DNA of 64,000 nucleotides. It comes from Fulvivirga imtechensis AK7 (lineage in GTDB: Bacteria > Bacteroidota > Bacteroidia > Cytophagales > Cyclobacteriaceae). Each line of letters begins with the position of its first letter. The stretch's first letter is position 1. Position numbers and translations under genes: made by a program. The DNA lies in contig NZ_AMZN01000045.1 in the NCBI RefSeq assembly GCF_000331535.1, positions 1 through 64,000 on the forward strand, in the 5' to 3' direction. The notes under the pieces were generated by a model. The model worked only from the letters and a program-made list of their open reading frames with translations. It made no database searches and was not told the origin of the DNA. Shown piece after piece: positions 11,118 through 62,819 of this stretch.

Positions 11118-11154
11118 AGTATTTTATATCGAACCTACGTTAAATTATTACTTA

Positions 11155-11643
11155 GTATTCGTAAGAAAACCCTAAGTGGCTTTAAGAAAACGTTCCCGCC
11201 AAAGGGCTATAGCCGTTAACTTAAGCATCCCGGTAGGGATGCAATATTAGTAGCCCGGGGTGAAGCCCCGGGATAGGATTAGATTTTTTTATGCGCCACA
11301 TTCAAGCTTGGGAAGATGAGAAGGCTATTTTGGCGCATCCATGCTTACTAAGGTAAATGCTTCGAACTCATTCCTGCCATGTGTGCCAAGGAAGCCTGTG
11401 TTCCATGGTTGGGCCTTCCTATGGCACACTCAACTTCTCGTTTAAACCCGGGGCTTCACCCCGGGCTACAAAGATTTACCCCCTCTGGGGGCCTCTGGGG
11501 CTCGTTTTCTCTTAAGTTAACGGCTATGGCCAAAGGGCGGGACGAAGTGCCAAAAAAAGGTAATCCAGTACAGTTGTTACTGTTGTCGGGAAGAGCATGT
11601 TTGGACGAGCATAACGCAGACATTGGAGTTTTCTTGGAGACAC
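11155..11643. mobile_element. MITE-A copy 1, carrying nested element E
   Basis: The left end gtattcgtaagaaaac and the right end gttttcttggagacac form the family terminal inverted repeats. A perfect 6-bp duplication, tactta, flanks it at 11149-11154 and 11644-11649. The element body is split by element E (11207-11529) plus its duplication. Without that insert the body is about 158 bp, like the other copies. Short open frames across this region are not credible genes. Confidence 0.85.
11207..11529. mobile_element. Element E, 323 bp, inserted inside MITE-A copy 1
   Basis: The ends ctatagccgttaacttaag and cttaagttaacggctatgg are inverted repeats matching at 18 of 19 positions. The 8-bp sequence ccaaaggg occurs on both sides (11199-11206 and 11530-11537). 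The intact sequence at this point in other MITE-A copies has only one such block. Internally there is a second inverted pair (cccggggtgaagccccggg and its partner near 11453-11465). No transposase is encoded. Confidence 0.75.
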
Positions 11644-11724
11644 TACTTACAGCCTGTGATATCCATAAAGTATCGCACTGAAGCTTGCAGGCCATGCCAG
11701 ACTGATCAGTAATTCAGCTCATTT

Positions 11725-11770
11725 AAAAAAATCCTGCCACCGTATTTAAGAACGGTGGCAGGATTTTTTT
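11725..11770 (-). terminator. Strong terminator hairpin after the beta-propeller lipoprotein
   Basis: A perfect 19-bp inverted repeat (aaaaaaatcctgccaccgt and its complement at 11752-11770) with an 8-base loop, A-run on one side and T-run on the other. It lies about 40 bp beyond the stop of the lipoprotein gene and could also act in the opposite direction. Confidence 0.85.
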
Positions 11771-11808
11771 AAATACTACTAAGGTACGACTGAGCTATTT
11801 ACCAGCTA

Positions 11809-13131
11809 TCAGGGTAAGTACACCTTCAAATCGACTGTAGCATAGTAAATCCCTTTTTTTTGATGTTTTTTTTGTGTCCAAGCTACCAGCAGCTTGTGAT
11901 CTTGTAATACCGTCACCACAGGGTGCGATGCTTCAGCAGCGTTACGTGTGACATTGATTGTTTTGATGTTGCTGCCAGGCTCCCTTACCTGCATCATAAT
12001 CAGCGATCCTGAGTTTTTTTGAGCATGGTGTGCATTGTTTCCATGTGAGCCGCTATGATGCTGCTCCTCTGAGTGACCTTGAAATTCATCCCAAACCACT
12101 GCCAGAGCGCCTGAAGGCAGGCTGATCATTTGAGGATGCCGTGCTGTTTTGCTGATCTTTTCGCGAGTGGTGAAGGTCTGGCCGTTATCAGTAGAACTCA
12201 CATGGTAAACGCCTTCATCTCCACCGGCTGTAAACCACACAGCGTGCAGCCCATGCCGGTTGACTGCCAGGGAAGGACCTGTGTGCGGACAACCCTCTAT
12301 TGCCCAGTTGTCTTCACTGATCCGTTTTGCATTGCTAAAGGTCTGGCCTCCGTCATAGGAAATACTGTGCACCATATCCCTGACCTGTCCCATAAGAGTG
12401 GGAGGGAAGAGTATATCCCGATAGGCGATATGGACATTTCCGGCCGGGTCAACAAACAGGTCTGTCCGGCAACATTCGCAGGTGCTTTCACCTACCTGTT
12501 TGTCGAGACCAAACCCTGTACCTTCTTCCGTTTTATCAAAAAATATAACTGACCCTGTAGAAGCATCACCAAATCGGCCATCCAGCCATATCGCCCCAAC
12601 TTCACCATCGGGAAGTGTTGCTATGTCAAAGAAGCTTCTGCCATAGGTTTTTGCCGTATCATCATGCAGGTATTCGGGGCTGGTCCAGGTTTTACCTTCA
12701 TCAGAGGAGAGCGAATACATTATGGAACCAGCAAAACGATTTTCTTCTGTTGGATGTTTAATGGCAAACATGGCTACAACAGTACCGTCTTCTTTGAAGG
12801 CTATTTTATTCATGCTCTCATCATGTGCACGTGTACCTGTGGAAGAAGTAACAGTGACAGGTTCTCCGAAGCGTTGGTGTAATGCTTCGAACGTGGCAAA
12901 CTTCATCACATGGCCTTCCTTATCACTGATCTTTTCGGTCCAGCATAGTACAGGTTGCTGTAGATGATCCATTGTGAAATAGGCCCCGGAGGCGTCAGCA
13001 GTATCGACTGATATCAAGGAAGAAGTTTCCCGGGCATGCGGTGAGCCGGTGCTGATCTGGCAGCCGGAGATCATTCCCGTAATGGAGACCAGGAATACCG
13101 CCAGGGTTATGATTTTATTGATCGGTTGCAT
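11809..13131 (-). CDS. BNR/sialidase-like beta-propeller lipoprotein with Cys/His clusters
   Basis: A 440-residue lipoprotein (ISGC, Cys24) with Asp-box repeats: SSDEGKTW at 142-149, SYDGGQTF at 258-265 and STDNGQTF at 313-320. Two features are unusual for a sialidase: a CECC motif at 218-221 followed by RTDL, and EGCPHTGP at 279-286. A His-rich segment, GHSEEQHHSGSHGNNAHHA, lies at 352-370. These suggest metal binding rather than glycan cleavage. The catalytic Arg triad of sialidases is not evident. It is 2 bp downstream of the TonB receptor gene and must be cotranscribed with it, followed by a terminator. The substrate is unknown. Confidence 0.8.
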   Translation of the reverse strand: MQPINKIITLAVFLVSITGMISGCQISTGSPHARETSSLISVDTADASGAYFTMDHLQQPVLCWTEKISDKEGHVMKFATFEALHQRFGEPVTVTSSTGTRAHDESMNKIAFKEDGTVVAMFAIKHPTEENRFAGSIMYSLSSDEGKTWTSPEYLHDDTAKTYGRSFFDIATLPDGEVGAIWLDGRFGDASTGSVIFFDKTEEGTGFGLDKQVGESTCECCRTDLFVDPAGNVHIAYRDILFPPTLMGQVRDMVHSISYDGGQTFSNAKRISEDNWAIEGCPHTGPSLAVNRHGLHAVWFTAGGDEGVYHVSSTDNGQTFTTREKISKTARHPQMISLPSGALAVVWDEFQGHSEEQHHSGSHGNNAHHAQKNSGSLIMMQVREPGSNIKTINVTRNAAEASHPVVTVLQDHKLLVAWTQKKHQKKGIYYATVDLKVYLP

Positions 13132-13133
13132 GG

Positions 13134-15425
13134 CTAATTCTTTTTTGAAAATTTATACCCAATACCTATGCTGAAAGTCCTCGGATCTCCCGGTGAATAG
13201 TTCTTGCCAAAGCGCGATTTGCTGGCATTGGTCGCATACAGTTCATTGGTGATATTCATGATGTTACACCAGATGTCGAAGCCCTTAAGCGTATATCCCA
13301 CGCGCATGTTAAGTAGGTCAAAGCCTTCATATTTTTCTGTATTGGCAGCGTCCATATAGTATGGTCCCACATGCTGCCATTCCAGTCCGATCCTGGAGCC
13401 TTTAAGGAATGGAGGCTTGTATTGCACTTCTGTGTTGGCTATCCAGTTGGGCGCTGATTCCATGCTGTTGCCGTTGTAACTTTCTCCGAGTTCCTGATAA
13501 TCACTATATTCATGAGTGGCATTGGTACCCCCGACCCGGATGTGCAGGTTGTTCAATGGCACATAGCGGAAACCATACTCCACGCCCTGATGTAGCGTTT
13601 CTCCGGCATTTCTGTTCTCACGAGTGCCGTCATCCAGCAGCACGTTGATCACTTCATTAGTCCCTCTCATTTGGTAAAAGCTGATATCGAAATAGCCTTT
13701 TTCCACGATGGAGAACCAGCCGCCAACCTCAAGGTTTTTGTAAACCGATGGTTCTAATACAGGTACTTTCACTCCTCTGTACAATTCGCTGACTTGTGGA
13801 GGTACAAAACCGATGCTATAGTTGGCATACAATCCCCTGTCTCGACCAAAATCATAAGTAAAACCCACTTTTGGGCTTAGGTTTTCAAAAGTATCATCTG
13901 AGTTTGGCGCTCCTGAAAATGCATCAGGGGTAAGAAAATTTTCATAACTGTAGTCAAACCTGTCGTAACGGAGCGCCAATACAACGCGTAATCTTTGGAC
14001 CGGGCTCATCTCAAGCTGTGAATAAACAGCGGTATTGAACAGGCTCACTTCATAGTCAGTCAGCAGGGAATCAGGCTTGCTGTATCCTGTATACACACCC
14101 TCTTCGTTGCGGGCGATGTTGATAAATTCGGCATAATAGGAATTAGGACTGAAGTCTATGCTGACCCCTCCAATAACACTGGCATCCCAAAAGCCGAACG
14201 TCTTCATGTGTTGTGCCAGGGCGCCATAGCTGCGAAAGCTATTTTCATTAATTTCCCCGGAAGCTTTTAATGGATTGGTACGATCATTCTTCACGCGGTA
14301 AGCCGGGATTTGCCCCATGCTGTTATCCCTGTAGAACAGGGTAAACTTGGTCTTATTCCTGTCGTTCCATAAGTGTTCCAGTGTACTTCTCAGCCTGAGT
14401 GCCTTCACTGTACGCTCTGTAAAAGTGTGCATACTGGGGTATTCCATGCTGTAAAAGTTGATGCTGTCAATACTTCCGGTCATATCAGTTCCATAGTCAA
14501 TTATGGTTGCACTTGTTGTCAGCTTATTTTTCGCATCAATTTGGTAGTCACCTTTGAGGCTAAGGGCGAGTTTGTTAAAGTCGCAGTGTTCGCGGTATCC
14601 GTTTTTTCGGTAGGCATAATACCCACCGGCATAAAGGCCGAACTTTCCTAAAGTATTTCCTGCCCCGATGTCTAGTCTATTGTACCCCAGGTTGTCTTTT
14701 TGTATAGATATATTGGCTGTGGGAAATGCCGAGGCGCTCTGTGTAATGAAGTTAATGGATCCTCCGATGGCCTCGCTACCGTATATGGAAGAAGCGGGGC
14801 CTTTGATCACCTCGATGCTTTTCAATGCGGCCATATTCATTTCTACCAGAGAATTATGATTGAATACCCCCGTTGGCCGAATGGGAATGCCGTCTTCCAT
14901 GTACAAAAAGAGGCTTTTAAGTGACAGCGGTTGGCGAATGCTCATACTGTGCTGTTCATTACCGAGGTTGACCATGTAGACACCGCTGACTTTATTGATC
15001 ACCTGCTCCAGGCTGGCCGCCTTAGTATCTTCCAGTAGATTCGGAGATATTTTACCGATGGCGGCAGGTACATCTGTTCGAAGCTGGTTTTCCCGGCTGG
15101 CGGATACCACCACCTGGTTCAATTGTACAAATGATTGTTTCAGGCGGATGGTGAGCGCCTTTTCTGTTATAGAAATAGTTTCGGGTTCATAGCCCACATA
15201 AGAGAATGTAAGTTGATTGCCGGCAGGTACTCCCAAAGTAAAATTACCCTGCAGGTCTGTGGTGGTCCCTTGTGTCGTCCCGGAAATAGTAATATGTACA
15301 CCGGGAAGTGATACCTGCGTTTCTGAATCAATCACTTTTCCGGTAATAAAATTTTGGGCGTAGAGTGAGCAGCCTGTTCCCGCCCATAGCAAGACAAGCA
15401 GATATATTTTAAAAATATGATCCAT
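13134..15425 (-). CDS. TonB-dependent outer-membrane receptor
   Basis: A 763-residue receptor. A signal peptide ends near residue 23. A carboxypeptidase-regulatory-like domain (ITGKVIDSETQVSLPGVHI) occupies about 27-110, a plug domain (about 120-230, with IEVIKGPASSIYGSEAIGG) follows, and then a 22-strand barrel. No SusD partner is nearby, so import of a small ligand such as a metal chelate or cofactor is more likely than glycan uptake. The downstream lipoprotein is Cys/His-rich and the upstream small protein carries CNGHC, which supports a metal-related role. The ligand itself is not identifiable. Confidence 0.9.
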   Translation of the reverse strand: MDHIFKIYLLVLLWAGTGCSLYAQNFITGKVIDSETQVSLPGVHITISGTTQGTTTDLQGNFTLGVPAGNQLTFSYVGYEPETISITEKALTIRLKQSFVQLNQVVVSASRENQLRTDVPAAIGKISPNLLEDTKAASLEQVINKVSGVYMVNLGNEQHSMSIRQPLSLKSLFLYMEDGIPIRPTGVFNHNSLVEMNMAALKSIEVIKGPASSIYGSEAIGGSINFITQSASAFPTANISIQKDNLGYNRLDIGAGNTLGKFGLYAGGYYAYRKNGYREHCDFNKLALSLKGDYQIDAKNKLTTSATIIDYGTDMTGSIDSINFYSMEYPSMHTFTERTVKALRLRSTLEHLWNDRNKTKFTLFYRDNSMGQIPAYRVKNDRTNPLKASGEINENSFRSYGALAQHMKTFGFWDASVIGGVSIDFSPNSYYAEFINIARNEEGVYTGYSKPDSLLTDYEVSLFNTAVYSQLEMSPVQRLRVVLALRYDRFDYSYENFLTPDAFSGAPNSDDTFENLSPKVGFTYDFGRDRGLYANYSIGFVPPQVSELYRGVKVPVLEPSVYKNLEVGGWFSIVEKGYFDISFYQMRGTNEVINVLLDDGTRENRNAGETLHQGVEYGFRYVPLNNLHIRVGGTNATHEYSDYQELGESYNGNSMESAPNWIANTEVQYKPPFLKGSRIGLEWQHVGPYYMDAANTEKYEGFDLLNMRVGYTLKGFDIWCNIMNITNELYATNASKSRFGKNYSPGDPRTFSIGIGYKFSKKN

Positions 15426-15546
15426 GATAAAAAGCTTAAAAGAATTATAAATTTGATTTGTGATCCAGCTTCAGTAGAAGCATAGTAGCACCAGGGATAG
15501 CCGGTTTTGGTTATTCAAAACGAAGGCTAAACAGGTAAAATTCTTA

Positions 15547-15930
15547 TTAGCTTAGCTGCCTTGGAGGACGAAAAATATCTGCTAAATAGCCGGGAATGAT
15601 TAGCTCCTCGTAAGTATTGAATGCCAGAGTTCTGGCAGGAAAAGTACGGGCCCTGAACTTATGCAACGCCTCGCAGAAGGTCTCCAGGTTCTGCTATTTG
15701 TTAGTCTGATTTTCCTGCGACTGCTCGGTTTCCTGCGTCTTCTTTAATTTCTGCATCAGGATACAATGTCCGTTACAATTGAGCTCCGGCTTGTCACGAT
15801 TGATGCATAGCACTCTGGCGATATAGTCCTGATTGATCTTAAAGTCGATGTAAACGACCGGGATCATCATCGCTTTAACCATCATAATGAAGGCCAGGAA
15901 TCCAAGTGCTATTTGTGCGTGTGATTTCAT
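15547..15930 (-). pseudogene. Small membrane protein with CNGHC motif, interrupted by an in-frame TAG
   Basis: An N-terminal membrane segment (GFLAFIMMVKAMMIPVVYI) is followed by DYIARVLCINRDKPELNCNGHC, a pattern I recall from small proteins next to TonB receptors in Bacteroidota. The ATG at 15930 is preferred over the one at 15957 because the membrane segment starts there. A TAG at 15694-15696 ends the product at 78 residues. The same frame continues without stops for 49 codons to a TAA at 15547-15549, ending FRPPRQLS. The length after readthrough (about 127) seems usual for such proteins, so this may be a nonsense-mutated gene. A functional short form is also possible. Confidence 0.6.
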
Positions 15931-16099
15931 TGATGCTACTGCAATATTAAAGCACACAACTTTATAGAAACATGATTTTGGTTACTTTAAATATTGATCA
16001 TTGTCAGGACATGTATAGCAGTATTGAATTTAAAAGCCAAAACCCTTTCAGGAAGACTTTCGTTTGCGATATTAGTTGTGTCAAAATCCAAATCGTTAA

Positions 16100-16888
16100 A
16101 TGGTTCAGATTTTTCCCTTAGAAGGGTATCAAGCCCTGGAGAAGCCCAGAAGGGTAATAAAGTATGTACTCGTATGGTGTGCATCCGGAGATATTACCCT
16201 AACCGTTGACGAGGGTGATTTTGAGCTTAAGGAGAACAGTCTGATCACGATCACATCAGGGCAGATCCACTATCTGAAGAGTAAAAACAATGCCCGGGGA
16301 TACGTTCTGGAATTTACGCTGGATTTTTTCTGTAAAGATGATACTGATATAGAACTTATTTTTCACAATGGACTTTTCTGCCATTTTTCTATGAATGAAG
16401 TCATACCACTGGATAGTGATTTTATTGCCGGACAGTTAAAGCTTATCAAAGAAGAACTGAACCGGCAGCCGTACCAGTACCTGATCTCTGTGCATTCACG
16501 TATTGAACTCATCTTGGTGGAGATTAACAGAACAAAAGTAGGCCGGGGAGGTGAGGTATGGAAACCCGAGGCATTGTTTCTGCGATTCCTTGAGCTGGTG
16601 AGGGCAAACTATGAGAAAAACTATACTGTGAGCCAACTGGCGCTCATGTTGAGAACCACCGAAGCCAGGCTCAACGAACAAGCTAAGCTTCATGCTGGTA
16701 AAACTGCGCAAAACGTGATCTACGGGTTGACTGTCTCTGAAGCCAAGCGGCTGCTCACCTATGAGAACCTGACGGTAAAAGAAGTGGCCTACAAGTTAGG
16801 CTTTAGCGATCCTTTTTATTTTTCCAATTTCTTCAAAAAACACACCGGTAAATCTCCGAAAGCCTACCAAGGCGAGTACGCACTGTGA
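16100..16888 (+). CDS. AraC-family transcriptional regulator
   Basis: A 262-residue regulator. The N-terminal cupin-like ligand domain spans about 1-150. The C-terminal AraC double HTH spans about 165-258, with YTVSQLALMLRTTEARLNEQ and VKEVAYKLGFSDPFYFSNFF. It is divergent from the TonB locus and sits upstream of the DJ-1 lipoprotein and cupin genes on the same strand, which it could regulate. The inducer is unknown. Confidence 0.9.
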   Translation: MVQIFPLEGYQALEKPRRVIKYVLVWCASGDITLTVDEGDFELKENSLITITSGQIHYLKSKNNARGYVLEFTLDFFCKDDTDIELIFHNGLFCHFSMNEVIPLDSDFIAGQLKLIKEELNRQPYQYLISVHSRIELILVEINRTKVGRGGEVWKPEALFLRFLELVRANYEKNYTVSQLALMLRTTEARLNEQAKLHAGKTAQNVIYGLTVSEAKRLLTYENLTVKEVAYKLGFSDPFYFSNFFKKHTGKSPKAYQGEYAL

Positions 16889-16920
16889 TCTTACATGCTT
16901 ATCCAAAGATCCTCTATGTT

Positions 16921-16947
16921 TTGCAGCCTTGCCTGCGGGTAGCTTTG
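16921..16947 (+). promoter_or_regulatory. Candidate Bacteroidota promoter for the DJ-1-like gene
   Basis: TAGCTTTG at 16940-16947 matches the -7 consensus TAnnTTTG exactly. A TTG at 16921-16923 lies 16 bp upstream, slightly short of the usual 17-23 spacing. The start codon at 16973 is 25 bp downstream, giving a short leader. Confidence 0.45.
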
Positions 16948-16972
16948 TATTATCAATTAATTCACAAAGCAT

Positions 16973-17668: not shown

Positions 17669-17675
17669 CAAAAAT

Positions 17676-19614: not shown

Positions 19615-19666
19615 GAAGATCTAGCCATTATATTCGGAACCGAATTTAAACAATACAGGTTAATCG

Positions 19667-20776: not shown

Positions 20777-20780
20777 GGGA

Positions 20781-24123: not shown

Positions 24124-24212
24124 CGAATTAAATTCTTTTTTCAGATTGGTAAGCAGGGTAGTTGCTAATTTATATCCTCTTTAAATAGCATCCTAAATAA
24201 TACCAATAATTA

Positions 24213-24554
24213 GTGATTGTAAGAAAAACTTAAAACTTATCCTCATTGCGAGGCAACCAACAACTTCAGTTGATTTTGTGGATAATGACATTATACCACC
24301 ATTAACTACAGAGGAAGCAGAGTAGGAACAGAAGTCATAAACCACACTGCCGGTAGCGAGGGGATTCACTGCGTTACGTCCGGGATGACGGAAGTGGGGA
24401 ATTGAATAATTATCTGACTATCAGCATGTAATGAAAAATTGTCATTGGTAACGAAGTGCGGCAATCTCCTCTTCTTTGGTGTCCATTAAGAGGGGATCGC
24501 TTCGATTCCTCCCCGTGGCAAGCCCGATAACAACAAGCGTTTTCTTACAATCAC
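24213..24554. mobile_element. Long member of the MITE-A family (342 bp)
   Basis: The ends gtgattgtaagaaaa and ttttcttacaatcac are perfect inverted repeats and differ from the family ends by one base. A perfect 6-bp duplication, taatta, flanks it at 24207-24212 and 24555-24560. The interior differs from the short copies and contains bits of other dispersed repeats (cctcattgcgagg; cgggatgacgg). No coding frame was found. It fills most of the gap between acn and the LytS-like gene. Confidence 0.8.
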
Positions 24555-24701
24555 TAATTAGCGGTTTTTGGCAATGGCATTTCCACTGCGGGGGTGATGT
24601 GCATTTAACAAAGTTGTTGGAAGCGATAGCAAAAAGCCTTGATATTTTATGGGAAAAAGTTATTACTTTAACTGCCTGTTCATTATTGAAGAAAAACTCA
24701 T

Positions 24702-29034: not shown

Positions 29035-29051
29035 TTGGTATTGTCTATTTA

Positions 29052-29146
29052 GTCTTTGCAAGAAAACTCTAAGTGGCTTTAAGAAAACATTCCTGCCAAA
29101 GAGCGAGACAAGCGCAACGCAGACATTGACGTTTTTTTAAAGACAC
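29052..29146. mobile_element. MITE-A copy 2 (internally shortened, 95 bp)
   Basis: The left end gtctttgcaagaaaac and right end gtttttttaaagacac match the family. The perfect duplication tattta lies at 29046-29051 and 29147-29152. The central part of the family sequence is missing. Confidence 0.8.
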
Positions 29147-29222
29147 TATTTAGCGTGAGTTCGATATAAACGCTCGGTCATCCTATCCCGAAAGCTTTAA
29201 TAGTCGACAGTTGGCAAAAAAA

Positions 29223-29486: not shown

Positions 29487-30251
29487 ATGGAAGACCACCG
29501 AAATGATGAGTTTTTAAACTCACTGGATTTGATTGACAGGAAATTGGAACAGCATATCCCTTTTATATTGGCTGATCTGTGGGAATTGGGAAGTATGCCT
29601 GAATATATTATCAAACTGATCAGGAAAAATGTGGGTAATGCAAATCTTGGCTTGATTACTGACTTTGGGTGTGGTAAAGGTGCAGTTCTCATAAAGATGG
29701 CATTGGAGTTCGACTTCAAAGGCCTGGGAATCGATTTGGTACCCGAATTTATTGATGAGGCGAAAGCGCATGCACGGGAAAATGACCTGGAAAACAGAAT
29801 AAAATTCATGGTAGGGGATATTAGAGATCAGCTCTCAAATGTGCGTGAACAAAATATGATAATCTACGGCTATGACTCGCAGCTTCTTGGAGACGTGGAG
29901 GAAACACTACTTCAATTAAAAGATTGTCTATCGAAAAGCGGCCGGATCATTTTAGAGGTCGTGTGCACTGCCGGGGAGGATAAAATTGATGAATTACCCA
30001 CAGCGAGTGAGCTGAATGATCAGATCGAAAAAGCCGGACTGACAATTGTTGATCATCTGGTATGGGATAAGGAAGTATTGGCCAGGATGAATGCTCACAA
30101 TAACAAATTAATAGCGGGACGGTTATCCGAACTCACTATGTCATATCCTGAAAAGGCTCCTCTTTTTGAGCAATATATGATGAATCAGTTAAGTGAATGT
30201 CAGGAACTGGAAAATAATATGATCTGCTCAACTTTCATGTTGCAAAATTAA
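29487..30251 (+). CDS. SAM-dependent methyltransferase, class I
   Basis: A 254-residue methyltransferase-fold protein. SAM motif I is ITDFGCGKGAVLIKMA at about 57-72, motif II acid is in GLGIDLVPEFID, and GDIRDQL follows. The substrate is unknown. It stands alone, bounded by repeat C upstream and MITE-A copy 3 downstream. Confidence 0.85.
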   Translation: MEDHRNDEFLNSLDLIDRKLEQHIPFILADLWELGSMPEYIIKLIRKNVGNANLGLITDFGCGKGAVLIKMALEFDFKGLGIDLVPEFIDEAKAHARENDLENRIKFMVGDIRDQLSNVREQNMIIYGYDSQLLGDVEETLLQLKDCLSKSGRIILEVVCTAGEDKIDELPTASELNDQIEKAGLTIVDHLVWDKEVLARMNAHNNKLIAGRLSELTMSYPEKAPLFEQYMMNQLSECQELENNMICSTFMLQN

Positions 30252-30261
30252 CCATTACTTC

Positions 30262-30404
30262 TTGTCTCTAAGAAAACGTCAATGTCTGCGTTACGCTTGT
30301 CCCAAAAATGCTCTCGTACCTTATAGTACGCTCCGCTTTTTGGAACTTCGCAAGCCTTGACCTTGACCTTTTCTTAAAGCCACTTAGAGTTTTCTTAAAG
30401 CCAC
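30262..30404. mobile_element. MITE-A copy 3
   Basis: The ends are ttgtctctaagaaaac and gttttcttaaagccac. The perfect duplication tacttc lies at 30256-30261 and 30405-30410. The internal hairpin around ctcgtaccttatagtacg is present. The element sits 11 bp after the methyltransferase stop and 18 bp from the sulfotransferase stop. Confidence 0.85.
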
Positions 30405-30422
30405 TACTTCGTTTCCTTTTTG

Positions 30423-32283: not shown

Positions 32284-32515
32284 GCAATTGGCCTCTCCTT
32301 TTGTCATAATCACCCACTTCCGGTGTGAAACTTCATCTATATCTTTGAATTATTAACCAATAGAGCCTGCCAATCCTTAATGGCGATCGGTACAGGCACA
32401 GGATAAACAGAATCGGCAGTTGGTCAAAGCAGTTGGCAAATAAGGTGAGTAATAACTGAGATCTCCAGTGATGCATTCGGACTTCGACTTCGGTCCAATG
32501 CTCAATAACTAAATA

Positions 32516-32659
32516 GTGTCTCTAAGAAAACGCCAATGCCTGCGTTACGCTCGCCCCAAAAATGCTCACGTACCTCAGTACGCTCCACTTTTTGGGACTT
32601 CGTCCCGCCCTTTGGCGGGAACGTTTTCTTAAAGCCACTTAGAGTTTTCTTACAAACAC
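32516..32659. mobile_element. MITE-A copy 4 (most complete copy)
   Basis: The ends gtgtctctaagaaaac and gttttcttacaaacac are good terminal inverted repeats. The perfect duplication taaata lies at 32510-32515 and 32660-32665. The internal parts are intact: cccgccctttggcggg and cgtacctcagtacg hairpins. The element ends only 7 bp before the start codon at 32673, so the transcription start of the VOC/MATE operon must lie in or beyond it. Confidence 0.9.
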
Positions 32660-32672
32660 TAAATATATAATC

Positions 32673-39164: not shown

Positions 39165-39200
39165 ATTAGAGTCTTTAAGAAAACGCCAATTTCTGGCTTC
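39165..39200. mobile_element. MITE-A end remnant
   Basis: gagtctttaagaaaacgcca resembles one terminus of MITE-A (gtgtctctaagaaaacgcca), but no partner end follows. The rest of the 38996-39388 gap is the heptamer tract and unrecognised sequence. Confidence 0.45.
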
Positions 39201-39226
39201 TTGTTACTGGTATGTGGCTCTGGCGA

Positions 39227-39380
39227 CAACTGAATACGGTGAAACTCAGAACTGCCGAACTGTGAACGGTAAGACTGACAAACTACAAACCGTGAACTGA
39301 GAACCGTGAACTGAGAACCGTGAACTGAGAACTGAGAACTGAGAACTGAGAACTGAAAACTGAGAACTGAGAACTGAGAA
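39227..39380. repeat. Long heptanucleotide tract, unit CTGAGAA/CCGTGAA
   Basis: Twenty-two consecutive 7-bp units in one register. The first ten are diverged (caactga, atacggt, gaaactc, agaactg, ccgaact, gtgaacg and so on). Then ccgtgaa and ctgagaa alternate three times, followed by ctgagaa repeated to the end with one ctgaaaa. The tract stops 8 bp before the SDR stop codon. There is no spacer/repeat structure of a CRISPR. Confidence 0.9.
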
Positions 39381-51990: not shown

Positions 51991-52225
51991 ACCTCTTTTT
52001 CAAAGTGGTCAGTTCTGCACTTTAACCCTTCATGTCATGCTAATGGCCCGGATCCTAATAATCATTATAATATTAACAGTTGATAAGGCATGGAGCTTGA
52101 CTCTGTAACAAACGTTACAAAAGTATTTAGTGGATTGGTATAATTTAGTGAATTGACGGTTGTCTGATTCAAACGGTCTTTTTGAAGCGATAGAGCCAGA
52201 AGTGTTTGAAAGGAAAATTAAATAA

Positions 52226-52359
52226 TGGCTCAAGAAACCGTTCTCGCCAATTAGCGGGATGAAGTCCCAAAAAGCTGAGTCCATACAACTGTTACAACTG
52301 TCGGGGAGGGCATTTTTGGAACGATCGTAACGCAGACATTGGCGTTTTCTTAGAGACAC
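52226..52359. mobile_element. MITE-A copy with degraded left end
   Basis: The right end gcgttttcttagagacac and the internal ggatgaagtcccaaaaagc match the family. The left terminus has decayed (tggctcaagaaacc). The globin ATG is 18 bp beyond the right end. The rest of the 51991-52377 gap is unrecognised. Confidence 0.65.
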
Positions 52360-52838: not shown

Positions 52839-52945
52839 GCTTGTGAGGTCCCAAAAATCAGAGTCCCGTACAGTTGTTACAGTTGTATGGGATGAGCATT
52901 TTTGGGACTAACCTAATATAAGCATTGGCGTTTTCTTAGTGACAC
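52839..52945. mobile_element. Truncated MITE-A copy
   Basis: The right half is present: gaggtcccaaaaatcag, gagcatttttgggac, and the end gcgttttcttagtgacac. The left terminal repeat is missing, and no duplication can be defined. Confidence 0.55.
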
Positions 52946-53378: not shown

Positions 53379-53535
53379 TGGTCGAGTTGGTTTTTAAAAT
53401 GAGTAGAAAACTAGCTAATTATACGCACTCATTCTAATCTCATACGTGATAAATCCGGGAGTAGGTCGCAAAATAACTGTTTTCGGGGATGCATGACACT
53501 AGAAAATTTGCAAATTCTTGTACAAAGGTCAATTC

Positions 53536-53678
53536 CTTCTTGTAACAAACGCTAAGTGGCCTAAGAAAGCGTCAAAATTTAAAAGCCAAAAAAGCGGAGT
53601 CCCGTACAGATTTACAGATTAGGGGTGAGCGTTTTTGGGATAAGCGTAATATAGGCATTGACACTTTCTTAGACGCAC
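53536..53678. mobile_element. MITE-A copy with imperfect duplication
   Basis: The left cttcttgtaacaaac...ctaagtgg and right actttcttagacgcac ends are diverged family ends. The flanks caattc (53530-53535) and taattc (53679-53684) match at 5 of 6 bases. The insertion point falls at the stop codon of the downstream SRPBCC gene. The remaining part of the gap is unrecognised. Confidence 0.65.
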
Positions 53679-53682
53679 TAAT

Positions 53683-54150
53683 TCACCTCCCTAACATCTC
53701 CCCAGTCCTCAAATAATAATTCATTGCTTTTTCCCACCACTCCATCGATTTCCTGAAATCTTCGGCTAACTGCTGTTTCAGGTATTTCTCCTGTTCCTCA
53801 GCCAGAGCCGTATAAATGTAGGTCACTTCTACAGGTGTGATACCTTTGTTTTCCTGATGCACCCGTATAGAGATCTTGACGACCATCTCTTTTGGGGTGA
53901 GCCTTACAAATTCAATTATCCCCTGATCCGGCTCATAGCGACTTACCATCCAGAAGGTAGTCTCCCTTCCATGAATGGATGTGCTAAACACACAATTCGC
54001 TTCTGCAAAGCCCGATTTGGAGTAGATCATATCATAACTCCAGCCATCCAGCCAGTCTTTTTCCCTGTTAGGGCATAGCAGGGGAAATATCTGCTGCAGT
54101 GTGCCTTCGATTTGCTGTATGTAGTGCATTGTTCTTTGTCTGCTTTTCAT
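53683..54150 (-). CDS. SRPBCC-superfamily protein
   Basis: A 155-residue protein of START/Bet v1-like character (HYIQQIEGTLQQIFPLLCP opening, TPVEVTYIYTALAEEQ strand, long C-terminal helix with WWEKAMNYYL). Such proteins bind hydrophobic ligands in a deep cavity. A second Met at residue 8 could be the start. It lies divergent from an AraC regulator. The function is unknown. Confidence 0.72.
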   Translation of the reverse strand: MKSRQRTMHYIQQIEGTLQQIFPLLCPNREKDWLDGWSYDMIYSKSGFAEANCVFSTSIHGRETTFWMVSRYEPDQGIIEFVRLTPKEMVVKISIRVHQENKGITPVEVTYIYTALAEEQEKYLKQQLAEDFRKSMEWWEKAMNYYLRTGEMLGR

Positions 54151-54273: not shown

Positions 54274-54335
54274 ACCAAATTTCTGTCCATACGTAAGAAC
54301 AACAGTGCCACCAGTTCCACTACTTGCTGATACCG

Positions 54336-57326: not shown

Positions 57327-57907
57327 AAAGGACCATACCGGGATATTATTTTTTCAGGCAGCGGATTTTGATCAGCCTGAGTACATTTTGTGTTTTTTTA
57401 ATAACTGCATACAAGCCTGTTCCACAGAGTACAGAGGTGCCGGAATATCGCGTCAAAGCTGTTTTCCTTTATAATTTCACACAGTTTGTAAAATGGCCCC
57501 AGCAGGTTTTTCGAAACGAGAATACTGCGTTTCGAATTGGTGTTTTGGGCCACGATCCTTTTGGCGATATTCTTGACGAAGTAGTAAAAGGGGAGGTTAT
57601 ACACGGTCATCCATTGGAGGTAGTAAGGTATTCCAGACTTGAGGAAGTTGACTGTCATATCCTATACATTAGTGAAAACAATCGAGACCGGTTAAAGCAC
57701 ATATTAAGCAAACTTAAAGATAAAAATGTATTAACTGTCAGTGATATAGGAGGTTTTGCAAAGGCAGGAGGAATGATTGAATTCGTAGAGAGGGATAAGA
57801 AGATCCAATTAAGGATCAACCAGGTTCCATTTAAAAATGCGCAGTTGGAAATCAGCGCTAAATTGCTTCGATTGGCAGAGGTGGTGTCCATTGACAAGAG
57901 TCTATGA
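57314..57907 (+). CDS. YfiR-family periplasmic protein
   Basis: A 197-residue protein with a signal/membrane segment at about 18-35 and a YfiR (DUF4154) domain at about 50-190. The family pattern is VKAVFLYNFTQFVKWPQ at 52-68 and later DIGGFAKAGGMIEFVERDKKIQLRIN. In Pseudomonas YfiR is a periplasmic inhibitor of a membrane signalling enzyme. Here it overlaps the receptor gene by 13 bp and the kinase gene by 4 bp and may couple outer-membrane input to the kinase. Confidence 0.9.
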   Translation: MANVKRTIPGYYFFRQRILISLSTFCVFLITAYKPVPQSTEVPEYRVKAVFLYNFTQFVKWPQQVFRNENTAFRIGVLGHDPFGDILDEVVKGEVIHGHPLEVVRYSRLEEVDCHILYISENNRDRLKHILSKLKDKNVLTVSDIGGFAKAGGMIEFVERDKKIQLRINQVPFKNAQLEISAKLLRLAEVVSIDKSL

Positions 57908-60075
57908 CAATGACAAAAGGCAAACAACCCATACAAGCAAAGATCACCAGGGCTATTCTGTTAACCAGTACAATTGTGCTACTGGTAACTGGTTCAGCAT
58001 ATTTTGCCTATGAATTTTTCACTTTCAGAGAAACCGCGGTCGACAGGATGGCTGTTTTGGGTGAAGTTATCGCTTATAACAGTACAGCGGCCCTTGCGTT
58101 TGATAGTAAAGAAGAAGCTTATGACCTTTTGCTGGCCCTCAGAGGACAGGAGCACATAGTTGCGGCTGCATTATATGATGAGCACGGAGAGCTATTTTCC
58201 AAGTACCCGAAAGAGTTTCAAAACGAACTTTTGCCCGGAAGGGTAGTAAGAGATGGTTATTACTTTGATAATTTCTATTTGCATGGATTTATTCCCGTAA
58301 TATTAGGGGAGCATCGTATAGGCACCTTTTATATGATGTACAATCTGAAAGTATTGAGCAGGCAGTTCCTCGTTTTTGGGGCTATTGTGCTCTCGGTGTT
58401 CATTCTTTCACTCCTATTGGCATGGCTGCTTTCTTCCAAGCTTCAGGAGCGCATATCACAGCCTATAATAGATCTTGCCAATATTGCGCATGGAATATCA
58501 GAAAATAAAGATTATTCGGTTAGGGTGGTTAAACAAAGTGAAGATGAAATAGGCGTGCTTACCGATGCATTCAACCATATGCTTACGCAGATCCAGGAGC
58601 AGAGCGTGGCCCTGCAAAAAAGTGAAAAACGATTTCGTACCATTGCCGATAATATTGCTCAACTGGCATGGATGACAGATGAAACCGGTGCTATTACGTG
58701 GTATAATCAGCGATGGTATGACTATACAGGCGCCTCTTTTAAGGATGTAGGCGGGTGGGGATGGAAAAAGTTGCACCATCCCCACCACGTTGATCGTGTA
58801 GTAGAGAAATTCAGCATTGCGATTAAAAGCGGAGATATATGGGAGGATACCTTCCCGCTCAGAGGTATAGATGGTAATTACAGGTGGTTTCTTTCCCGTG
58901 CCATTCCTATTCGCAACGAAAGTGGAGAGATCTTGCATTGGTTTGGAACAAATACGGATGTCAGCGAACTGATGGAGGTGGAAGAGGCGCTGCGGCTCAG
59001 TGAAGAATTTAGCCGTACATTATTTGAGAGCAGTCCTGATTGTGTGATAGCGCTGGATATTGAGGGTGAGATCTTATCTATGAACCCTCAGGGACTAAAG
59101 ATGTTGGATATTAATGATTTTGACCAGTATCATGGCAGGCATGTACGCTTCTTATGGCACGAAGAATATAGCGACATGGTATTGGATACCATTGGAAAGG
59201 CTCAAAATGGCAGGATAGCACATTTTCAGTGTAGCTCGGACACCGGCCGCATCGGTGTCAGGTGGTGGGATGTACTCATTGCACCTATTTATGGAACAGA
59301 GGAGCATGTGGAGAGGCTGATCGCTGTTTCGCGTGATATTACAAAGCTGAAAGAACTGGAACAGCAAAAAGATGATTTTATAGGCATAGCAAGCCATGAA
59401 TTAAAAACGCCCGTTACCAGTATCAAAGCATATGCTGAGCTATTACAGAACCGCTTAAAAAATAGCGATGACGAGCTTGCAGAAGAGATGCTGGTGAAAA
59501 TGGATGCTCAGATCAACAGGCTCAACAATCTTATTACTGACTTGCTGGATGTTACCCGTATTGAGCAGGGTAAGCTGCAGTTCAGAGAAGAATACTTTGA
59601 TTTCAATGAGTTGGTAAGGGATGTCACAGAATTGGTGCAGCGTACAAGCAGGAGGCACCGGATAGAGACCGATCTGGACGAAACAAGACTGATACTGGGT
59701 GACAGAGACAGACTGGGACAAGTAATCACCAACTACCTGACAAATGCCATCAAGTATTCACCCAGGGCAGACAGTATCATCGTTAGAACAGAGGTGCGGG
59801 GCAGTGAATTGATTTTTTCTGTAAAGGATTTTGGATTGGGACTCGCGCCAGAAGATATTCCTCGGGTGTTCGAACGGTTTTTCAGGGTAGGGGACCCCGG
59901 TCATGAGACCTATCCAGGCTTAGGTTTGGGGCTATATATCTCGGCAGGGATCATTCATCGTCAAAATGGAAAGACCTGGGTAGCAAGTGAAAAAGGCAAA
60001 GGCTCAACTTTTTATTTTTCCTTACCGCTTGAAACCCATGTAAGCTCACGTAATACTAAAAGTATCTTAGAATGA
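57904..60075 (+). CDS. Sensor histidine kinase with CHASE8-like, HAMP and PAS domains
   Basis: A 723-residue membrane kinase. The parts are: TM1 at about 17-36, a periplasmic CHASE8-like domain to about 150, TM2 at about 155-178, HAMP to about 232, and two PAS domains (about 242-355 and 366-480; WMTDETGAITWYNQRWYDYTG). HisKA with His498 (GIASHELKTPV) and a HATPase domain (NYLTNAIKYSP, GLGLGLYISAGI) complete it. It overlaps yfiR by 4 bp and is followed immediately by a receiver gene. YfiR is the probable periplasmic partner. Confidence 0.92.
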   Translation: MTMTKGKQPIQAKITRAILLTSTIVLLVTGSAYFAYEFFTFRETAVDRMAVLGEVIAYNSTAALAFDSKEEAYDLLLALRGQEHIVAAALYDEHGELFSKYPKEFQNELLPGRVVRDGYYFDNFYLHGFIPVILGEHRIGTFYMMYNLKVLSRQFLVFGAIVLSVFILSLLLAWLLSSKLQERISQPIIDLANIAHGISENKDYSVRVVKQSEDEIGVLTDAFNHMLTQIQEQSVALQKSEKRFRTIADNIAQLAWMTDETGAITWYNQRWYDYTGASFKDVGGWGWKKLHHPHHVDRVVEKFSIAIKSGDIWEDTFPLRGIDGNYRWFLSRAIPIRNESGEILHWFGTNTDVSELMEVEEALRLSEEFSRTLFESSPDCVIALDIEGEILSMNPQGLKMLDINDFDQYHGRHVRFLWHEEYSDMVLDTIGKAQNGRIAHFQCSSDTGRIGVRWWDVLIAPIYGTEEHVERLIAVSRDITKLKELEQQKDDFIGIASHELKTPVTSIKAYAELLQNRLKNSDDELAEEMLVKMDAQINRLNNLITDLLDVTRIEQGKLQFREEYFDFNELVRDVTELVQRTSRRHRIETDLDETRLILGDRDRLGQVITNYLTNAIKYSPRADSIIVRTEVRGSELIFSVKDFGLGLAPEDIPRVFERFFRVGDPGHETYPGLGLGLYISAGIIHRQNGKTWVASEKGKGSTFYFSLPLETHVSSRNTKSILE

Positions 60076-60093
60076 ATAAAGTCAGAAAAAATA

Positions 60094-60435
60094 TTGGTCG
60101 CTGATGATGATCCCGGTATTCTGGATGTAATGAAAATTATGCTTGAAGACGTTGGAGGATATGAGGTGGAGACCACTACAGATGGCGAATCAGTTTTGGA
60201 GATACAGCATGACTATCCCGACCTGATCCTTCTTGACTTGTGGATGTCGGGGATCAACGGCAGCGAGGTTTGTAAGACCTTAAAAAATAATGAGGAGACC
60301 AAAGCTATTCCTGTGATCATTTTCTCTGCCAATCGTGATGTTGGCATCATTTCAAAATCAGTTGCCGCTGATGATTATATAGCCAAACCCTTTCAAATGA
60401 GCGACCTGCTTGCAAAAGTAGCCAGGTTGATCTAA
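60094..60435 (+). CDS. Single-domain response regulator; start in question
   Basis: A 113-residue receiver with acidic DDD early and phospho-acceptor Asp in LLDLWMSG, TK-type Lys in AKPFQMSD. The only in-frame start after the kinase stop (60073-60075) is TTG at 60094, giving MVADDDPG. The usual start would be the ATG at 60072 overlapping that stop, but it is one frame away and closes at 60102. A one-base difference between 60081 and 60093 would join it. The receiver body itself looks intact. Confidence 0.75.
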   Translation: MVADDDPGILDVMKIMLEDVGGYEVETTTDGESVLEIQHDYPDLILLDLWMSGINGSEVCKTLKNNEETKAIPVIIFSANRDVGIISKSVAADDYIAKPFQMSDLLAKVARLI

Positions 60436-60456
60436 CGATAAAGTGATCCGGGTAGC

Positions 60457-60936
60457 CTATTTCTTATTATTAGAGCCTAATTCCTGTACCAGCTCCTTGA
60501 TCAAAACCGTTGTTTTTTCCATATAGCTGCAGATCGTGTCTAGCTCCTCAGGGCTAAATTGATCGTAAAGCACTGTCATTTGGTCAATTAATCTACCAAA
60601 TACCGGCCCGAATACCTTTTGAGCTTTCTGTTGATCGGGTACTATCACCACTTTTCTTCTGTCATCCGGGTCTCTGTCCCTTTTTACAAAACCTGTTTTT
60701 TCAAGCCGGTCGATCACCCCGGTAATGGCCCCGGTAGTAAGGCCCGTATGCTCAGCCAGCTCTCCGGCAGTCATGGCACCTTGCTGTAGCAATATACTGA
60801 GATACTTATGGTCTGCCCCTGCCAGCCCGGCGTTATGGGCTACGAATTCGTGAAAAAGAATCGTAGAATCGGAAAACTGGCGTCCCGCCATATTAAGTTG
60901 TTCTCGCAAACTTTCTCCTGCTCTTTTCTTGCTCAT
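60457..60936 (-). CDS. MarR-family transcriptional regulator
   Basis: A 159-residue winged-helix regulator with the MarR core: GELAEHTGLTTGAITGVIDRLEKTG at about 79-103, then the wing DPDDRRKVVIVP. The gene is divergent from a small HMA-like gene with a 95-bp gap that contains a promoter and two GCTAAG direct repeats, a likely self-regulated operator. The ligand is unknown. Confidence 0.9.
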   Translation of the reverse strand: MSKKRAGESLREQLNMAGRQFSDSTILFHEFVAHNAGLAGADHKYLSILLQQGAMTAGELAEHTGLTTGAITGVIDRLEKTGFVKRDRDPDDRRKVVIVPDQQKAQKVFGPVFGRLIDQMTVLYDQFSPEELDTICSYMEKTTVLIKELVQELGSNNKK

Positions 60937-60958
60937 TGATCAGTTATTTTTATCTTTG
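60929..60958 (+). promoter_or_regulatory. Promoter of the HMA-like gene
   Basis: TTG (60929-60931), 19 bp, then TATCTTTG (60951-60958), an exact match to the Bacteroidota/Flavobacterium pattern TTG-N(17-23)-TAnnTTTG. It overlaps the start of the divergent marR gene. Confidence 0.6.
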
Positions 60959-60990
60959 TTGCTAAGATAATTATTTGCTAAGCTAAAATA
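60959..60990. promoter_or_regulatory. Probable MarR operator, 16-bp direct repeats
   Basis: ttgctaagataattat (60959-60974) is followed directly by ttgctaagctaaaata (60975-60990). The pair lies just downstream of the -7 box in the marR/HMA-like divergent gap. Each repeat holds GCTAAG in an AT-rich setting typical of MarR sites. Confidence 0.5.
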
Positions 60991-61031
60991 ATTAATCACA
61001 AAAATAACTATTTCAAAAACTCACAACAACT

Positions 61032-61289
61032 ATGGCACCAAAAGATTTAGTAGATGAAATGATCATATATGACCAAATTTTGGTTTTTAGGACCAACCTC
61101 AATAGCATTCGAAAGGCGCGACTGGCATGCAGGGAGCTGGAGAGAATTGAGGGAGTGCTACAGGTAAATGTCGATCTTAAAGACCATGAAAATGTATTGC
61201 GGGTAGAATGTAAGCGTAATATCCAACCTGCAGAAATAGAAAATAGCGTGCTCAGAATAGGCTTCTATTGCTCGGAATTGGAGGGGTAG
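61032..61289 (+). CDS. Small HMA-like (ferredoxin-fold) protein
   Basis: An 85-residue protein (VFRTNLNSIRKARLACRELE, VLQVNVDLKDHENVLRVEC) with the beta-alpha-beta-beta-alpha-beta layout of heavy-metal-associated domains, but lacking the CxxC metal site. Divergent from marR, which probably controls it. A metal-independent or degenerate role is likely. Confidence 0.65.
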   Translation: MAPKDLVDEMIIYDQILVFRTNLNSIRKARLACRELERIEGVLQVNVDLKDHENVLRVECKRNIQPAEIENSVLRIGFYCSELEG

Positions 61290-61409
61290 CCGTGTTCTGA
61301 GTTCTTACTTTTTCTTCAGGTATCTGCGGTAGGAAAATAACTTACCTGTTTAACCAACCAACGACTGGTTATTATCGTTATCTGATGCTGAAAGCAACAA
61401 TATTATTTA

Positions 61410-61608
61410 ACGCTTGTAAGAAAACTCTAAGTGGCTTTAAGAAAACGTTAAGGTCAAGCTTGCCTTCGCATAACCGCATGAGCAGAGTAAGGGCTTGCGC
61501 TTTCGCACCGCTAAGGCACACCGGTGTGAAGTCCCAAAGACGGGAGTCCCATACAAGAACATTTTTTTGGGCAAGCATAATCCAGACATAGACGTTTTTT
61601 AGAGACAT
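61410..61608. mobile_element. MITE-A copy with extended interior (199 bp)
   Basis: Left acgcttgtaagaaaac and right gttttttagagacat ends. The flanks tattta (61404-61409) and tattaa (61609-61614) match at 5 of 6 bases. The interior has extra sequence (gcataaccgcatgagcagag). The VOC start codon is 26 bp beyond the right end. Confidence 0.65.
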
Positions 61609-61634
61609 TATTAAGAATAGTCCCCCGGATAACT

Positions 61635-62384
61635 ATGGCAAAGAATGAAATAAGAGAATTTGCAATACCTATGCTTCCCAGTAATTCTATAAAGGATACC
61701 ACTGAGTTTTACAGGGCTTTGGGTTGTACCATCACTTATCAGCAAAAAGCCCCAAATAATTATATTGGGCTCAAAATAAAGGGTATTGAAGTCCATTTTT
61801 TTGGGTTGAAGCTCAAACCGGAGTCAAATTTTAGTTCATGCTATCTCAGAGTTGATGATATCGAAACATTTTACACCAACTGCAGGTCAGGACTGAAAAA
61901 ACAATATGGTAAAATTCCTCTTAAAGGCATTCCAAGGATAAATCCTTTAAAGGATATTCCTGCGTATGGTGTACGTCAATTTGTAATTGTTGATCCTTCA
62001 GGAAATTATATCAGAATAGGACAACCTATTGTAAAAGAAAACAGCGTGCTATTCGAGGAAAATGACGTAAAACCAAAGGAAAGTACCGCCCTGGAGAAAG
62101 CATTCGAGTTAGCCTGCAGACTGGCAAACGGCAAAGATGATCTGACAGCAGCGGCTAACCTAATAGACAGAATATTGACGACTGACAATGGCACAGAAAA
62201 GAGAATGCTTTTCAGGTTAATAGCATTACGGCTGGACATTGCCTACCGTGATGGAAATATGAATAAAATACAGGAGTTATTAAAACGAGGAAACTCCCTA
62301 TTGACGCAAATAAAAGATACATCGACCATTGCAGCGGATGTACAACTATTTAACACATTGTCATCAGAGTTAAAACAAATATAA
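61635..62384 (+). CDS. VOC-family protein with helical C-terminal extension
   Basis: A 249-residue protein. Residues 1-132 form a VOC domain of the bleomycin-resistance type (FAIPMLPSNSIKDTTEFYRALG, then VRQFVIVDPSGNYIRIG). Residues about 145-245 are an all-helical extension (ALEKAFELACRLANGKDDLTAA..., TPR-like) not usual in the family. It lies 26 bp after a MITE-A copy and is followed by a clear terminator. Function unknown; a resistance-type binding protein is possible. Confidence 0.8.
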   Translation: MAKNEIREFAIPMLPSNSIKDTTEFYRALGCTITYQQKAPNNYIGLKIKGIEVHFFGLKLKPESNFSSCYLRVDDIETFYTNCRSGLKKQYGKIPLKGIPRINPLKDIPAYGVRQFVIVDPSGNYIRIGQPIVKENSVLFEENDVKPKESTALEKAFELACRLANGKDDLTAAANLIDRILTTDNGTEKRMLFRLIALRLDIAYRDGNMNKIQELLKRGNSLLTQIKDTSTIAADVQLFNTLSSELKQI

Positions 62385-62464
62385 GTGTTAACCCAGGTTA
62401 ATTCGGATTGTGTTTTCAGGCAGTCAGAGAGTTACCGTTGCAAGCCGCTTTGAGAAGTACCAAC

Positions 62465-62498
62465 AAAACCCGCTTCAGGCACTTCCGAAGCGGGTTTT
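62465..62498 (+). terminator. Terminator after the VOC gene
   Basis: aaaacccgcttc (62465-62476) pairs perfectly over 12 bp with gaagcgggtttt (62487-62498), loop of 10, followed by gccgttttt. Confidence 0.85.
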
Positions 62499-62511
62499 GC
62501 CGTTTTTCCTG

Positions 62512-62819
62512 CTAGTGTTGAGTCAAGTGTACTGTGCCATATAAGTTGCAGTTATTTTTGTCCAGGCAACACAAACAATATAAGCATAGCCGAAGCTACG
62601 TAGTTGTAAGAAAACTTCTAAGTGGCTTTAAGAAAAGGTCAAGGTCAAGGCTTGTGAAGTTCCGAAAAGCGGAGCGTACTGAGGTACGAGAGCATTTTTG
62701 GAACGAGCGTAACGCGGAGATTGACGTTTCTTAAAGGCACTACGTAAGTTTTTTTTAAGGCAGCATGGGACAAAAAGAACAAAGCTTGGTATGGCTAAGT
62801 ATGCCTAACTCAACACTAG
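62512..62819. mobile_element. MITE-B copy 2, interrupted by MITE-A
   Basis: The ends ctagtgttgagtcaag and atgcctaactcaacactag match those of copy 1 in reverse. Removing the inserted 144 bp at 62603-62746 (MITE-A plus one duplication) gives about 164 bp, collinear with 2638-2803. Confidence 0.8.
62603..62740. mobile_element. MITE-A copy nested in MITE-B
   Basis: Ends gttgtaagaaaac and gtttcttaaaggcac. The duplication tacgta lies at 62597-62602 and 62741-62746, and the uninterrupted MITE-B copy 1 has a single tacgta at the same place. This shows the insertion directly. Confidence 0.9.

Follow-up and report, generated by a model that had tools for sequence, protein, structure and literature searches.

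Correia elements and REP/BIME repeats are short, intergenic, palindromic and present in high copy number, and in these respects they resemble the family described here, which we call MITE-A: a miniature inverted-repeat transposable element (MITE) that recurs in the first 64,000 nucleotides of contig NZ_AMZN01000045.1 (contig 45) of Fulvivirga imtechensis AK7, hereafter the window. Correia elements duplicate TA, and REP elements, which are linked to RAYT proteins, make no such duplication. Closer to MITE-A stand the insertion sequences (ISs) of the ISNCY kind (profile NF033593; ISRm17-like in Rhizobiales), which have, as MITE-A does, GTG......AAAC ends and a TA-bounded duplication of 6-7 bp; unlike them, MITE-A lacks a transposase, measures 141 bp, repeats its left end twice and contains a hairpin core that is conserved. 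We take the ISNCY elements considered here to be, probably, the ISDol1 group of ISfinder with its 6-7 bp duplications.

Among Bacteroidota, the Porphyromonas gingivalis MITEs (MITE239, MITE464/PgRS and BrickBuilt) likewise have the ends of full-length ISs; these ends match IS5-family ISPg elements, differ in sequence from those of MITE-A, and accompany duplications that, in BrickBuilt, vary from 2 to 5 letters (PMC4596501). The IS1202 family is listed under ISNCY in ISfinder and has an extra transposase-binding site near each end, a likeness to MITE-A; it differs by a TnsB-like transposase and, in its Acinetobacter members, by a 5-bp duplication, 5'-TGT ends and dif-site targets (PMC10132070).

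As a MITE, MITE-A is of a known kind, and its doubled end, its orphan state and, above all, its shared hairpin core make it an unusual variant. Comparison of sequences makes it very probable that MITE-A belongs with the ISNCY elements, as a non-autonomous DNA transposon moved in trans. What the comparison brings out is a set of matching ends, their duplications and target rule, some copies whose left repeat is single, and, in another Bacteroidota genome, an intact ISNCY-type IS that agrees in ends and rule; from these we infer that an ISNCY-type transposase moved MITE-A, and that the host once had this transposase and lost it. An orphan MITE thereby gains a likely mover, named by family, and the ISNCY group gains two features that can be searched for, TA-bounded target duplications of 6-7 bp and GTG...AAAC as the signature of its ends. 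The MITE interior is moreover conserved across genomes labelled Bacteroidota and Balneolota, which makes testable both structural selection on MITE interiors and the ways in which non-autonomous elements outlive their transposases.

Ends and target duplications

The consensus MITE-A is 141 bp long and mostly intergenic. It consists, in order, of GTGTTTGTAAGAAAAC, five bases, a second repeat GTGGCTTTAAGAAAAC, the hairpin core and a right end that reads GTGTCTCTAAGAAAACG(T/C)CAATG on the inverse strand. The left repeat is doubled, its second copy lying 21 bp inside the outer one; this feature, the hairpin core and the placement at gene 3' ends described below are additions to the preliminary description of the window.

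The window's contig is part of a 6.74-Mb draft genome of 225 contigs, from which we drew a host sample of 1.82 Mb (27% of the genome) in stretches picked around known copies. With a profile built from 78 copies, 140 de-duplicated two-ended elements were gathered without using their flanks; the window contributes only four of them, and one of its copies (62603-62740) scored 3/6 there, its damaged left end having been missed. The 6-bp flanks are identical in 72 of the 140, agree in 5/6 positions in 30 and in 4/6 or fewer in 38, against a mean of 14.3 perfect pairs (maximum 25) in 1000 rounds of shuffled partners. Where TAnnTA stands on both sides (n=81), the central dinucleotide agrees in 67 elements, compared with a shuffled mean of 16.1 and a maximum of 26 over 2000 rounds. 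The commonest perfect duplications are TAATTA (27), TATTTA (9), TAAATA (8) and TAAGTA (7), and TAnnTA makes up 0.66% of intergenic hexamers in the host sample, MITE duplications counted in. Five 6/6 copies depart from the consensus at an outer base and show the departure on both sides (GAATTA twice, GAAGTA once, TACTTC twice), so the duplication is one of 6 bp rather than of 2 bp within a fixed TA..TA. The 6-bp TAnnTA duplications first described in the window thus hold at the scale of the host sample.

Two paralogous empty sites agree with insertion. The one for L037 (L numbers designate loci) is L037:5617-5764, at 71% identity with a gapless junction, the six site bases having diverged; the one for L060 is L014:9042-9095 (45/54), again gapless at the junction, with only 19 bases left of it. 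MITE-A accordingly combines the properties of a MITE: it is short and multi-copy with terminal inverted repeats (the 102 copies that reach 5/6 or better have a median length of 141 bp), and it carries target site duplications. We also noted that L018:16611-16926 and L053:7407-8054 are end-to-end neighbours with one common TAATTA, that is, insertions into an existing duplication.

The doubled left repeat passes our test in 93 of these 102 copies. Of the other nine, two owe their failure to damage in the second repeat, and in three the inner-type GTGGCTTTAAG stands at the duplication, the interior of one of the three being different. Because some copies begin in this way with a single inner-type repeat, we read the two left repeats as alternatives, either of which may serve as an end. 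In predicted RNA folds the partner of the right end is the outer left repeat in copy 32516-32659 (z -7.7) and the inner one in copy 30262-30404 (z -7.9). Loops differ between copies as whole modules.

In the window, the 16-bp end pattern has 24 matches with at most three mismatches, against a shuffle mean of 1.87 and a maximum of 7. Direct reading bore out all six perfect duplications of the preliminary description, as well as its two 5-of-6 cases (at 53530 and 61404). The elements are as follows:

11155-11643, plus strand: MITE-A copy of 489 bp with other inverted repeats nested inside; TACTTA at 11149-11154 and 11644-11649 (6/6)
24213-24554, no strand assigned: element with GTGATTGTAAGAAAA ends; TAATTA at 24207-24212 and 24555-24560 (6/6)
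29052-29146, plus strand: MITE-A copy of 95 bp, hairpin deleted; TATTTA at 29046-29051 and 29147-29152 (6/6)
30262-30404, minus strand: MITE-A copy; TACTTC at 30256-30261 and 30405-30410 (6/6)
32516-32659, minus strand: well-preserved MITE-A copy of 144 bp; TAAATA at 32510-32515 and 32660-32665 (6/6)
about 53536-53678 (span 53530..53684), plus strand: degenerate MITE-A copy; CAATTC/TAATTC (5/6)
61410-61608 (span 61404..61614), plus strand: MITE-A copy with a longer interior; TATTTA/TATTAA (5/6)
62603-62740, plus strand: MITE-A copy with a damaged left end; TACGTA at 62597-62602 and 62741-62746 (6/6)
52202..52359, plus strand: old MITE-A copy with a good right end; flanks agree in 1/6
52848..52945, plus strand: partial MITE-A, only hairpin part and right end
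39169..39203, minus strand: solo right-type end (GAGTCTTTAAGAAAAC), after which unrelated sequence follows

The interior of the element at 24213-24554 is unlike the MITE-A core and contains CATTGCGA-type repeat sequence.

ISNCY elements with the same ends

Exact TANNTA-plus-end sites number 216 in the host; of the 390 genomes of its order that were searched, G245 alone has such sites as well. In named genomes, a scan with the end-plus-target pattern TANNTAGTGTYTSTAAGMAAAC returned at least 68 stretches, all from Bacteroidota or Balneolota by title among the matches listed (we presume the phylum placement of Balneolales); the same scan with a host-specific inner motif found nothing. Of 73 ends among the matches listed, 28 (24 loci) pair with an opposite end within 600 bp and have a duplication of at least 5/6, 19 of them perfect, elements with two perfect ends being counted twice; among the other 45, 24 reach a contig edge within 400 bp.

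One of these loci, L253 (CAMDBI010000026.1, from a metagenome-assembled genome (MAG) labelled Bacteroides fragilis), is a complete IS of the structure TATTTA + 1844 bp + TATTTA. Its ends, GTGTCTCTAAGAAAAC and GTGCCTCTAAGAAAAC, have 18 of 20 terminal bases in common, and it contains an open frame of 509 residues (P0001) that scores 376.5 bits to the NF033593 ISNCY family transposase (cut-off 325) and matches Pfam DDE_Tnp_1; an AlphaFold model of P0001 made without an alignment had a mean pLDDT of 39 and was not used. L253 shares with MITE-A the terminal bases, the target rule and the duplication length. The search for an IS with matching termini, which the preliminary description had proposed, thus leads to a complete ISNCY element in another Bacteroidota genome and not in the host. 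The same description knew of no described element with these ends: we too found none of six forms of the 16-mer in the papers searched, but ISNCY ISs with such ends and homologous MITEs in Bacteroidota and Balneolota do exist.

Other ISNCY genes lie near similar ends. In L254 (Balneolaceae), the 5' part of an ISNCY transposase (54% identical to P0001, 142.5 bits) begins about 170 bp inside a TATGTA-flanked GTGTCTGTAAGAAAAC end. G245 has four ISNCY matches. Three are C-termini, and at a distance of about 180-200 bp from each lies a GTGTCAGATAGAAAAC or GTGCCTGATAGAAAAC end with TACATA or TATATA as its flank; the fourth is an N-terminus, and no clear end was seen in its locus. In L254 and G245 the TAnnTA flank is thus observed on one side only. 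Among plasmids, 132 records match P0001, most of them from Rhizobiales. Four of the five rhizobial ISNCY elements examined (L323, L325, L326 and L327, the first and last from the same species) have 7-bp TAGCCTA or TAGTCTA duplications and GTG......AAAC ends, on both sides in three, one side of L326 reading GTT; the L323 protein reaches 517.7 bits to NF033593. These duplications are one base longer than those of Bacteroidota. Positions 1, 2 and 13-16 are invariant across 13 hand-picked ends, which is informative only for the rhizobial and G245 ends because L253 and L254 were found with a pattern fixing those bases. A TA-bounded duplication and a GTG...AAAC end thus characterise, as far as tested, the ISNCY kind.

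G245 also harbours a high-copy element (L206:1501-1745, L228 and L198-L227) with the exact MITE end, or one change from it, and TAnnTA, broken at contig ends. The 39 C-terminal residues of its frame gave no Pfam match and two NCBIfam matches far below cut-off.

In the mechanism we propose, a DDE transposase supplied in trans would bind the 16-bp ends (GTG...AAAC), cut MITE-A out or copy it, and join it to a TAnnTA site with a 6-bp stagger, whereupon host repair would duplicate the six target bases. The left end would offer the binding repeat twice, 21 bp apart, either copy serving as an end, and the core would fold as a single long hairpin in which compensatory changes preserve the pairing.

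Search for a mover in the host

Whole-genome searches of the host with P0001 and with profile NF033593 gave no match, the assembly being a draft of which some short contigs were not covered. On the window's contig, rve, DDE_Tnp_1, P0001 and the ISNCY profile were all without a match, other families not being searched; this agrees with the earlier statement that the window holds no transposase, and is consistent with the proposed movement in trans. The claim that the family is non-coding fits as well, as no transposase-like frame was seen by eye between matching ends in the first 1.50 Mb of the host sample.

Several candidates for an autonomous partner were rejected. No such end (at most three mismatches) lies in about 3.5 kb around the host's rve match (a 741-residue frame) or its DDE_Tnp_1 match (391 residues), and end pairs 0.5-5 kb apart turned out to be neighbouring MITEs, solo ends or elements with other repeats inside. 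The IS1202 family was set aside too: P0001 matches DDE_Tnp_1 and NF033593, the duplication is of 6 bp, and the sole rve frame of the host has no such ends nearby. Ends with unusual inner bases occur genome-wide at 6 + 14 places, at 17 of which the opposite end follows within about 200 bp and at three of which (L164, L165 and L171) there is none, in a survey that excludes ends followed by TT, damaged ends and the frames at these three loci.

Beyond the host, the MITE-A consensus was not found by blastn in 14 congeners, nor was an exact 19-mer in these or in 23 further relatives; an exact 21-mer was absent from viral contigs, one window copy had no blastn match in phages and plasmids, and P0001 had none in viral contigs or phages. 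Nearest-neighbour identity among host copies (n=139) has a median of 92.9% and a highest value of 98.54%. Because the host has no detectable ISNCY transposase and copy identity never exceeds that value, the family looks stranded; the simplest account is that it amplified long ago and that the transposase was lost afterwards, although the assembly is a draft.

Placement relative to genes

MITE-A copies cluster at gene 3' ends. Of 106 copies (in a list with some repeats of one element and some orientation errors), only one falls within a frame of 150 residues or more, against 596 of 1000 random positions. In the cleaned set of 102, analysed with a crude gene caller (frames of at least 100 residues), seven copies at stretch ends and eight inside frames were left out; 73 of the remaining 87 face a gene 3' end, and 41 of these lie within 30 bp of the stop codon, as do 345 of 1273 intergenic TAnnTA control sites (Fisher p 4e-7). 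Distances to gene starts do not differ from those of controls (p 0.51), and copies show no clear bias towards the orientation of the nearby 3' end (24 same, 31 opposite). In 13 of the 102 copies the first three bases of the duplication are the stop codon TAA, on the gene strand, of a frame of at least 120 codons; such a stop is overlapped by 112 of 7395 TAnnTA sites anywhere, a control lying mostly inside genes and so flattering the difference. In the window, the copy at 30256..30410 lies 4 bp past the stop of the open reading frame (ORF) at 29487-30251. The position near stop codons presumably reflects selection on where copies are tolerated.

A hairpin core shared beyond the host

The MITE-A profile matches 23 of 68 external loci among the matches listed (34 matches, some being the opposite strand of the palindrome). 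In L268, L269 and L275 only an end part matches, and the core is present in at least 20 external loci from nine genomes. Among the matches listed, 14 of these core loci come from three genomes, Balneolales and Rhodohalobacter sulfatireducens by title, and six from six genomes labelled Bacteroidales, Paludibacter, Dysgonamonadaceae or Marinifilum.

We aligned the cores of 14 host copies (host sample and window) and 18 external ones, the latter from 24 intervals of which six with damaged or extra parts were left out. On this alignment RNAalifold predicts 25 pairs, 16 of them with changes on both sides, and 94.4% of cells stay paired. Double-change cells number 84, against 22.3 in shuffles and at most 26 when partners are slid by 1-3 columns; counted as pairs, a less telling measure, they are 16 against 8.8 in shuffles and 13 at a slide of +1. 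The structure was derived from the same alignment, relatedness was ignored, and cells count sequences, not events. As judged from this covariation, the predicted hairpin pairing is kept by compensatory changes. RNA folds of four external copies have z of -8.3, -4.7, -2.6 and -2.0.

No Rfam family matched the window at its gathering score, the best score around copy 32516-32659 being 16.3 bits where the gathering score is 49.5. In a terminator scan one window copy was picked out on both strands, but the region as a whole has 3 such sites against 3.1 in shuffles, so that a terminator role is only an idea. That selection maintains the core for its structure, as a two-way RNA 3' end or terminator at gene 3' ends, seems to us rather unlikely. 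Were it so, this hairpin, kept by compensatory change across the host's order, Bacteroidales and Balneolales, would allow an element without a transposase to insert at the 3' ends of genes, at times right on the stop codon, and the MITE would persist and spread far longer than its transposase.

Alternative explanations

Several results weigh against an ISNCY origin. L253 shares the ends but has neither the doubled repeat nor the MITE-A core (no profile match); neither the protein nor the profile search found an ISNCY transposase in the host; 38 of 140 copies agree in no more than 4/6 flanking bases; and two of the six plasmid ISNCY places have no clean ends (L322, from Methylotuvimicrobium, which is broken, and the rhizobial L324). 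As the frame of the G245 high-copy element has no credible family match, another transposase type might share these ends, and the ISNCY match of L253 would then be convergence or a captured end. In G245, indeed, numerous left ends next to TAnnTA have the exact 16-mer or differ from it at one position (40 scored of 92 candidates). However, only 39 residues of that frame are readable, G245 also has ISNCY C-termini near GTGYCWGATAGAAAAC ends with TAnnTA, and the GTG......AAAC ends with a TA-bounded duplication recur in four of five rhizobial ISNCY elements, so that we hold an attribution to another family to be quite improbable. Hardly credible is an absence of transposition altogether, whereby a hairpin repeat would have spread by recombination or as an attachment site and TA-rich flanks would agree by chance or site preference. 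MITE-A is a long hairpin, and its strong site preference does raise chance agreement, shuffled partners still matching 6/6 in 10.2% of cases; yet this leaves the 67 of 81 agreeing central dinucleotides (16 when shuffled), the duplicated off-consensus outer bases and the two empty paralogous sites.

The conservation of the core could have another origin than structural selection: transfer between lineages would have carried it, and the compensatory changes would come from template switching or inheritance. Inverted arms can be homogenised, and loops that differ between copies as whole modules are in line with such a process; the small excess of double-change pairs over the +1 slide, the counting of sequences rather than events, and two external copies whose fold is only a little better than that of shuffles (z -2.6 and -2.0) point the same way. 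Against it, the external copies have diverged widely (103 down to 19 bits) and nevertheless keep nearly all cells paired, and the double-change cells far outnumber those of any slid version. We consider this explanation possible, if somewhat less than probable.

Related elements and neighbouring sequences

Other elements have MITE-A ends without its core. One set in the host contains a CGTCATTGCGA-type palindrome between the same ends and duplications (L049:8422-8574, L021:13487-13640, L169, L178 and window 24213-24554), as though these ends had captured a REP-like repeat. Two further sets, in a Cyclobacteriaceae MAG and in a GWA2 Bacteroidetes MAG, have the same ends around interiors unlike MITE-A: L264:5055-5221, L282:2811-2979 and L287:5447-5607 form the first, and L270:229-477, L273:3760-3981 and L317:1099-1224 the second. 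At L292:1248-1830 such an end adjoins two small frames that resemble DUF2442 and DUF4160 proteins.

At window 29155-29169, GTGAGTTCGATATAA adjoins the right duplication of the MITE-A copy 29052-29146, and it also occurs beside a MITE in L060. It is nearly identical to the listed left end of P. gingivalis MITE239 (ACGTGAGTTCGATATAAAGGAA, PMC4596501), and perhaps represents a second MITE family with IS5/ISPg3-like ends. Just beyond the solo MITE-A end, a short tandem repeat of GAACTGA units occupies 39290-39380. Finally, a perfect 23-bp inverted repeat with an 8-base loop (11721-11774) adjoins the nested copy 11155-11643; it is terminator-like and lies 35 bases past the end of the minus-strand ORF 11809-13131.

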